This document shows positions 22,077 to 22,869 of a stretch of DNA of 32,482 nt, piece after piece (position 1 is the first letter of the stretch; each line of letters begins with the position of its first letter). Below the pieces are notes generated by a model, which saw only the letters and a program-made list of their open reading frames with translations, ran no database searches and was not told the origin of the DNA. The DNA comes from Campylobacterales bacterium (GTDB lineage: Bacteria; Campylobacterota; Campylobacteria; Campylobacterales; Sulfurimonadaceae), in assembly GCA_024277445.1 (NCBI GenBank), contig JAJRVE010000225.1:1-32482 (forward strand). Reading direction: 5' to 3'. The position numbers and the translations under genes are program-made.

Positions 22077-22204
22077 TACTTCCACCTCAACACCTCTTTT
22101 TACTCTTTTTTATACACTCAACTTATACTTTCTGTTATACCTCTAATCGTAATTTTATTTCTATTCAAATTTTTTCTATTACTTCATATCACTAGGATGC
22201 TACT

Positions 22205-22728
22205 TTTCTTCTTTGCTCGCACAAAGAAGAAACCTAGCGGAAAAGAAGAAAGTGCGAACGCGGTCACAGTTACACGGGGATGCATCATATACTCTGAGGT
22301 AGGCAAGGCAGTTGACTGTTTTAACTGTACCAAGAAGGTTGCGATAGCGAAGTCGAGTCCTAACTTATTTAAAGGTTGGTTTTTTCTTTCTCATGCTCTT
22401 ACGACTCTAGCATTGCCTATGTTTTGACACTCTGAATTGGGATGAAAGTGATGAGCTTTCACATTAATAGATGTGTTACCACTTGCTCTTCCTTCGCAAC
22501 ATCTGCAAAGCTGACTAGAAGAAGTGAAGTTCCGTTAAAAAAACAGTTCCGTTTGAACGAATAGTGAGTTAACTGTTTTTAGGAACGTAATGACTGGAAG
22601 GAAGGTACTCGATAGCTATCGAGCTTGAATCCGTTGCGAGCGGTTTTTCTACGATACGGAATTTAGTTCCGTCCTGTACGGCGCTTTAGCGCTGTGTGTT
22701 TCTCTTTTTTCCGAGAAAAAAAGAGAAA
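22205..22728. other. Structured intergenic element bounded by two pyrimidine/purine hairpins
   Basis: Left hairpin TTTCTTCTTTG/CAAAGAAGAAA (22205-22232). Right hairpin TTTCTCTTTTTT/AAAAAAGAGAAA (22699-22728). Between them: the long inverted repeat 22529-22586, palindrome CTCGATAGCTATCGAG (22608-22623), three copies of AGTTCCGT and GCGCTTTAGCGC. No convincing ORF. Confidence 0.65.
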
Positions 22729-22869
22729 GGCGTAGTCTATAAAGTTAATTCCAATAAAAACCACTAAACAGAATTATGCAACACATTAATAACTAACAAA
22801 ACATTCCCTTGCAAATAGTACTTTACAAGCCCATATTTATATGCTACCATTGTTATACAAGGAGTTCAG

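Follow-up and report, generated by a model that had tools for sequence, protein, structure and literature searches.

The element in the rpsR–ankyrin spacer

The window, a stretch of 32,482 nucleotides from the draft genome of a member of the Campylobacterales, carries between rpsR and an ankyrin gene a spacer of 820 bp that harbours a composite element at positions 22182–22744 (+ strand, oriented with its right half reading 5'→3'), as delimited by family alignment and BLASTN. The G+C content of the element is 41.6%, compared to 31.6% and 29.8% in its flanks, as had been noted in the original prediction. Two halves could be distinguished. The left half, module A (22182–22436, +), is common to copies on seven contigs (C55, C175, C26, C135, C79, C152 and C38), and the right half, module B (22437–22744, +), is the most abundant unit of the family, as judged from 57 nhmmer matches in extracted loci, an alignment of 34 copies (A1) and RNAalifold. 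The trinucleotide TTA directly adjoins the element on the left (22179–22181) and on the right (22745–22747), and could represent a 3-bp target duplication; the same pair flanks A+B copies on C26, C135, C79 and C152, but is missing at many others. Compared with MITEs, which have terminal inverted repeats in common with an IS of the host and a target site duplication, the element has loosely inverted ends, and the right ends of the copies are ragged.

An ORF of 76 residues across module A (22197–22427, +), suspected from the outset to be spurious, gave no match in a Pfam search. The longest open run in nine other A modules measures 42–59 codons in seven of them, 62 in locus L009 and 72 in L045, and the frame is therefore not maintained. 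With no Pfam match and a frame lost in most other copies, a decayed coding sequence was rejected; a tRNA or tmRNA identity was likewise rejected, as none was detected.

Hairpins are present at both edges, as originally described. The left one belongs to module A (22199–22238, +; loop CTCGCA) and is also found in other A copies; its arms (22199–22215 and 22222–22238) are 88% complementary and include TTTCTTCTTTG-N6-CAAAGAAGAAA. The right one is the terminal T-rich hairpin of module B (22699–22728, +), with fully complementary arms (12 of 12 positions; 22699–22710 and 22717–22728), and the 34 bp around it are identical in four other copies of the same genome. The two hairpins had been taken as similar to each other, but they belong to different modules and are not mutual copies. 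The loop of the left hairpin is complementary to GTGCGAAC at 22252–22259 (+), a predicted pseudoknot or strand switch, and loop and partner co-vary among copies (TCGCAC/GTGCGA, GCGCC/GGCGC, GCGTC/GACGC).

Module B opens with a hairpin, GATGAAAGTGATGAGCTTTCAC (22439–22462, +), with double compensatory changes at three of its six pairs, and contains a palindromic hairpin, CTCGATAGCTATCGAG (22608–22623, +), with double changes at five of seven predicted pairs. Between these lies the core hairpin with its outer stem (22524–22591, +; core 22533–22582), as defined by alignment A2 and model R1. Module B of the window copy further holds a nested 47-bp double-hairpin insert (22650–22696, +) that many other copies lack. 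Identical or similar units, in both orientations, are found at other places within runs of T or A. By itself the window copy is unconvincing, because its predicted fold is only mildly better than that of shuffled sequences (z = -1.9).

A multi-copy family in the host genome

A BLASTN search of the host assembly with the window element gave 65 matches, the best other copy being 85% identical over 465 bp, and 41 matches to a core covariance model were found in the 2.0-Mb draft genome. The possibility that the element is single copy, which would have spoken against the original prediction, is thereby removed, and the element is considered real because this family exists rather than from the fold of one copy. 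Several copies sit at contig ends, as is expected of repeats in a draft genome.

The anatomy of the copies, as read from extracted loci, follows two main plans: the A+B order seen in the window, and two B modules in inverted orientation around a short centre. Left modules of a second type, A2, also occur, and small double-hairpin inserts are nested at several places in the copies. With respect to the upstream gene the copies show no preferred orientation (14:14), and none was found to span a predicted gene, as expected of tolerated insertions. The element also accounts for small spurious ORFs, reading as LFERSEF-like peptides, that cross cores of this kind. In a complete genome of the genus (G002, contig C1), for which GC skew places the origin near 0 and the terminus near 1.45–1.55 Mb, the cores show an apparent one-strand bias, 12 of 15 core hairpins being head-on to the replication fork, albeit in small numbers.

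Conservation of the fold

The core (about 50 nt, within a module B of about 250 bp) has a common plan, consisting of an outer stem ending in a C–G pair, an asymmetric GUUAA/A internal loop, an inner helix of A4/U4 followed by a variable part, and an apical predicted kink-turn. In the window copy the internal loop is formed by GTTAA (22534–22538, +) facing A22581, and this motif is nearly invariant in the copies of the same genome, which were found by similarity and not by pattern. The putative kink-turn (22552–22567, +) comprises a TTT bulge (22552–22554), the tandem sheared pairs G22555·A22567 and A22556·G22566, and a short AC/GT stem. All parts of the sequence signature are present, i.e. the bulge, the tandem G·A/A·G pairs and the flanking stems, and the flanking GA..GA residues are invariant while the short stem between them covaries. 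From this signature we infer that the UYU-GA-GC...GC-GA segment of the core forms a kink-turn.

The fold is conserved on one strand through compensatory change. RNAalifold on 34 B modules predicted 57 pairs, of which 35 show compensatory double changes. On the B strand of these modules G·U pairs outnumber A·C mismatches by 132 to 15, an excess to which prediction of the structure on the B strand itself is expected to contribute; in the cross-phylum alignment, after exclusion of one constant G/A–U pair, the ratio is still 68 to 13. Alignment A2 of 61 cores gave a covariation score of 0.632, versus 0.191 ± 0.012 for shuffled alignments and at most 0.142 when the structure was slid along the alignment. 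The inner helix, left unconstrained by the core search pattern, is fully paired in 30 of the 38 distinct types, where 2.2 would be expected. Core positions fixed by the search pattern are not independent evidence in the cross-phylum set; the same residues are also invariant, or nearly so, in the copies of the host genome found by similarity. Because copies are related and share apical variants, the changes represent fewer independent events than alignment cells. A lack of structural conservation, which would also have spoken against the original prediction, is excluded by these compensatory changes.

Filled and empty sites

The genes rpsR and ankyrin are adjacent in seven genomes of the genus, and spacer lengths are given here for those other than G001. 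The spacer measures 872 bp in G003, with a different left module, and in G007, where a remnant resembling A is left, 483 bp. In G006, G004 and G002 it measures 309, 286 and 150 bp, respectively, and no element was recognised in it. A second locus, between an MFS gene and moeA, is occupied by identically oriented B modules in four species, and none was detected in the corresponding stretch of G002. Retention in four species implies that some insertions are old, and copies fixed across divergence at the genus level imply that movement is slow or belongs to the past. The same variants of the apical stem turn up in unrelated copies, and orthologous copies may carry different ones.

Distribution in other bacteria

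Every one of the eight genus genomes carries the element, with 13–27 matches to the core model in each member besides the 41 of the host, and its occurrence outside the genus is patchy; an exact core pattern was found in four of 298 high-quality genomes of the class, and a reversed pattern, used as a control, in none. Among the matches listed in GTDB genomes, the 50-nt core occurs in Campylobacterota, Bacillota, Bacteroidota and one Thermotoga MAG, reaching 34–47 copies in MAGs of Lachnospiraceae. Inverted core pairs are seen in Anaerococcus and in an Arcobacter MAG, and inverted B–B pairs in the genus itself.

In the Lachnospiraceae (loci L087, L129, L143, L152 and L127) the cores form the tip of very long, copy-specific, near-perfect palindromes. 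The cores of Anaerococcus and Peptoniphilus are tightly clustered (980–1100 kb on C2 of G332, 1418–1430 kb on C1 of G353 and 904–920 kb on C5 of G352); an association of these clusters in Bacillota with the replication terminus was rejected, since in G332 and G353 they lie away from the terminus as located by GC skew.

The window element gave no match in plasmid and phage records, and the core pattern none in viral contigs. No carrier between phyla was thus found in these collections, and carriage by a plasmid, phage or virus was rejected. At the gathering threshold of Rfam 15, no family for the element was obtained from the window, from a permissive scan or from eight loci of other organisms, which yielded only an FMN riboswitch and tRNAs, and a known RNA family was rejected for want of a match. 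As judged from Rfam 15 and from open-access papers, in which only analogues were found, the element is apparently new to the literature.

Candidate movers

No neighbouring gene, transposase genes included, recurs consistently among the loci, and a transposase gene beside the element was accordingly rejected as mover. Genes with a Y1_Tnp domain are present in five of the eight genomes of the genus and in 23 of 37 motif-bearing genomes, many of which are incomplete, so that absence from a draft MAG weighs little; the 14 genomes without Y1_Tnp include all four high-copy Lachnospiraceae MAGs. Neither the core motif nor a B module was found near any extracted Y1 gene locus. The host genome has two such RAYT-like genes of about 260 residues (loci L192 and L196), with no repeat beside them.

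A reverse transcriptase (RT) gene occurs in seven of the eight genomes of the genus and is nearly absent from other relatives (41 checked). The gene is of the retron type (L235, 5197–6789, with about 180 nt upstream; contig C152 of G000), single-copy and syntenic. Its product matches NCBIfam retron_St85_RT (3e-44, below the cut-off) and has a long C-terminal extension, apparently with a hydrophobic segment. Its leader forms a conserved hairpin with GGCAG...CTGCC ends, like msr-msd. The element does not lie beside the RT as a retron ncRNA would, the RT of the genus having its own conserved structured leader, and RVT_1 is absent from the complete element-bearing genomes G189, G160 and G353. For these reasons the RT was rejected as mover.

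Proposed nature of the element

The first description offered two readings, a mobile or repeated element between genes and a structured ncRNA. Repetition, presence or absence at a given site and conservation of structure have now been shown, and mobility is a conclusion that we draw from the dispersed copies and the empty sites. The element probably represents a non-autonomous mobile family that follows the logic of REPINs without being one of them, and its core would be recognised in the form of a folded single strand by a trans-acting factor. We favour this reading because of the negative results for neighbouring genes, Y1 genes and RT, together with the random orientation and the lack of copies that span genes. 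It is further supported by the copy numbers, the empty sites, the covariation and strand polarity, the occurrence in several phyla and the inverted pairs; against it count the lack of a consistently adjacent transposase or other gene, the restriction of TTA to some copies, the ragged right ends, the copies that stayed in place and the negative plasmid, phage and viral searches. Each dispersed copy is a mosaic of nested hairpin modules in which the core hairpin is invariant. The factor, encoded at another site in the cell, would recognise the folded single strand (RNA or ssDNA) around the core, and this recognition could allow copies to spread, occasionally between species. The A–B and inverted B–B layouts would then be comparable to a REPIN enlarged about tenfold.

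A more far-reaching proposal, which we put forward only tentatively, is a novel type of mobile element that crosses phyla, moving via a recognised, kink-turn-bearing RNA or ssDNA hairpin and inserting into hairpins or making them grow; such insertion or growth could account for the giant copy-specific palindromes.

It seems unlikely that the copies are a family of structured RNAs useful to the host (3'-end stabilisers, terminators or protein sponges) and kept in place by selection. The conserved fold with its G·U bias, the terminal T-rich hairpin and the copy retained in the same orientation by four species at MFS–moeA are all consistent with such a role, but the equal numbers of copies in either orientation to the upstream gene, the absence of the element from the same rpsR–ankyrin spacer in close relatives, the patchy occurrence across the class and the widely varying copy number argue against it.

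More doubtful still is that complementarity is kept not by selection for the fold but by correction of one arm from the other at the DNA level, through template switching at quasipalindromes or ectopic exchange. Such correction would agree with the near-perfect palindromes around the Lachnospiraceae cores and with the behaviour of the apical stem variants, but it would erase the unpaired or mispaired elements (GUUAA/A, GA..GA and the U-rich bulge) that are constant across phyla, and the excess of G·U over A·C is seen on one strand only. Finally, it is very improbable that the element is an outsized REPIN with a RAYT-type Y1 transposase as its mover. The inverted hairpin doublets and the occurrence of Y1_Tnp genes in five of the eight genomes might suggest this, but no core motif or B module lies near the extracted Y1 genes, and 14 of 37 motif-bearing genomes, many of them incomplete assemblies, lack Y1_Tnp, including the four high-copy Lachnospiraceae MAGs.

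For the non-autonomous mobile repeat that we favour, a fold strictly conserved in several phyla and the dozens of copies per genome that certain lineages carry, together with the negative results on movers, raise the question of what recognises the core. The covariance model of the core can be used to annotate such regions.

Comparison with known repeat systems

In logic the element is closest to REPINs, BOX and the bcr repeats; it was not assigned to any of them because linkage to RAYT fails and target duplication is not established. REPINs, built from REP sequences and associated with RAYT, are non-autonomous and occur in many intergenic copies as inverted pairs of asymmetric hairpins with compensatory changes (PMC3116915). 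The element shares all these properties (intergenic, multi-copy, inverted hairpin pairs, compensatory changes, non-autonomous), the doublets being represented by divergent B–B pairs, with A+B copies also common. Unlike REPINs, its units are about 250 bp long (versus 20–40 bp) and multi-branched with a predicted kink-turn, its core is common to several phyla, and it has no linkage to RAYT genes: no repeat was found beside a RAYT (Y1) gene, nor a Y1 gene throughout the hosts.

The pneumococcal BOX repeats are modular, intergenic, predicted to fold if transcribed, thought to be parasitic and known from Streptococcus (PMC3049150). The element resembles them as a modular intergenic repeat with a fold predicted if transcribed, but in terms of described properties it differs in a core that spans phyla. 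The bcr1–bcr18 repeats of Bacillus cereus are comparable in being 100–400 bp long, mostly chromosomal and endowed with mobile features, bcr1 with a conserved predicted structure (PMC6542083; PMC2267715); again by described properties, and unlike the element, they are tied to TTTAT motifs and confined to the B. cereus group. The nested 47-bp insert recalls the double-hairpin elements of mitochondrial DNA, which are mobile palindromic inserts; these are organellar and much smaller than the element.

A short palindromic repeat (approximately GTGGATCCCTGCCTTCGCAGGGATGACG) recurs beside several copies, to the right of module B in L014, L020, L030 and L035, and resembles repeats of the dRS3 type.
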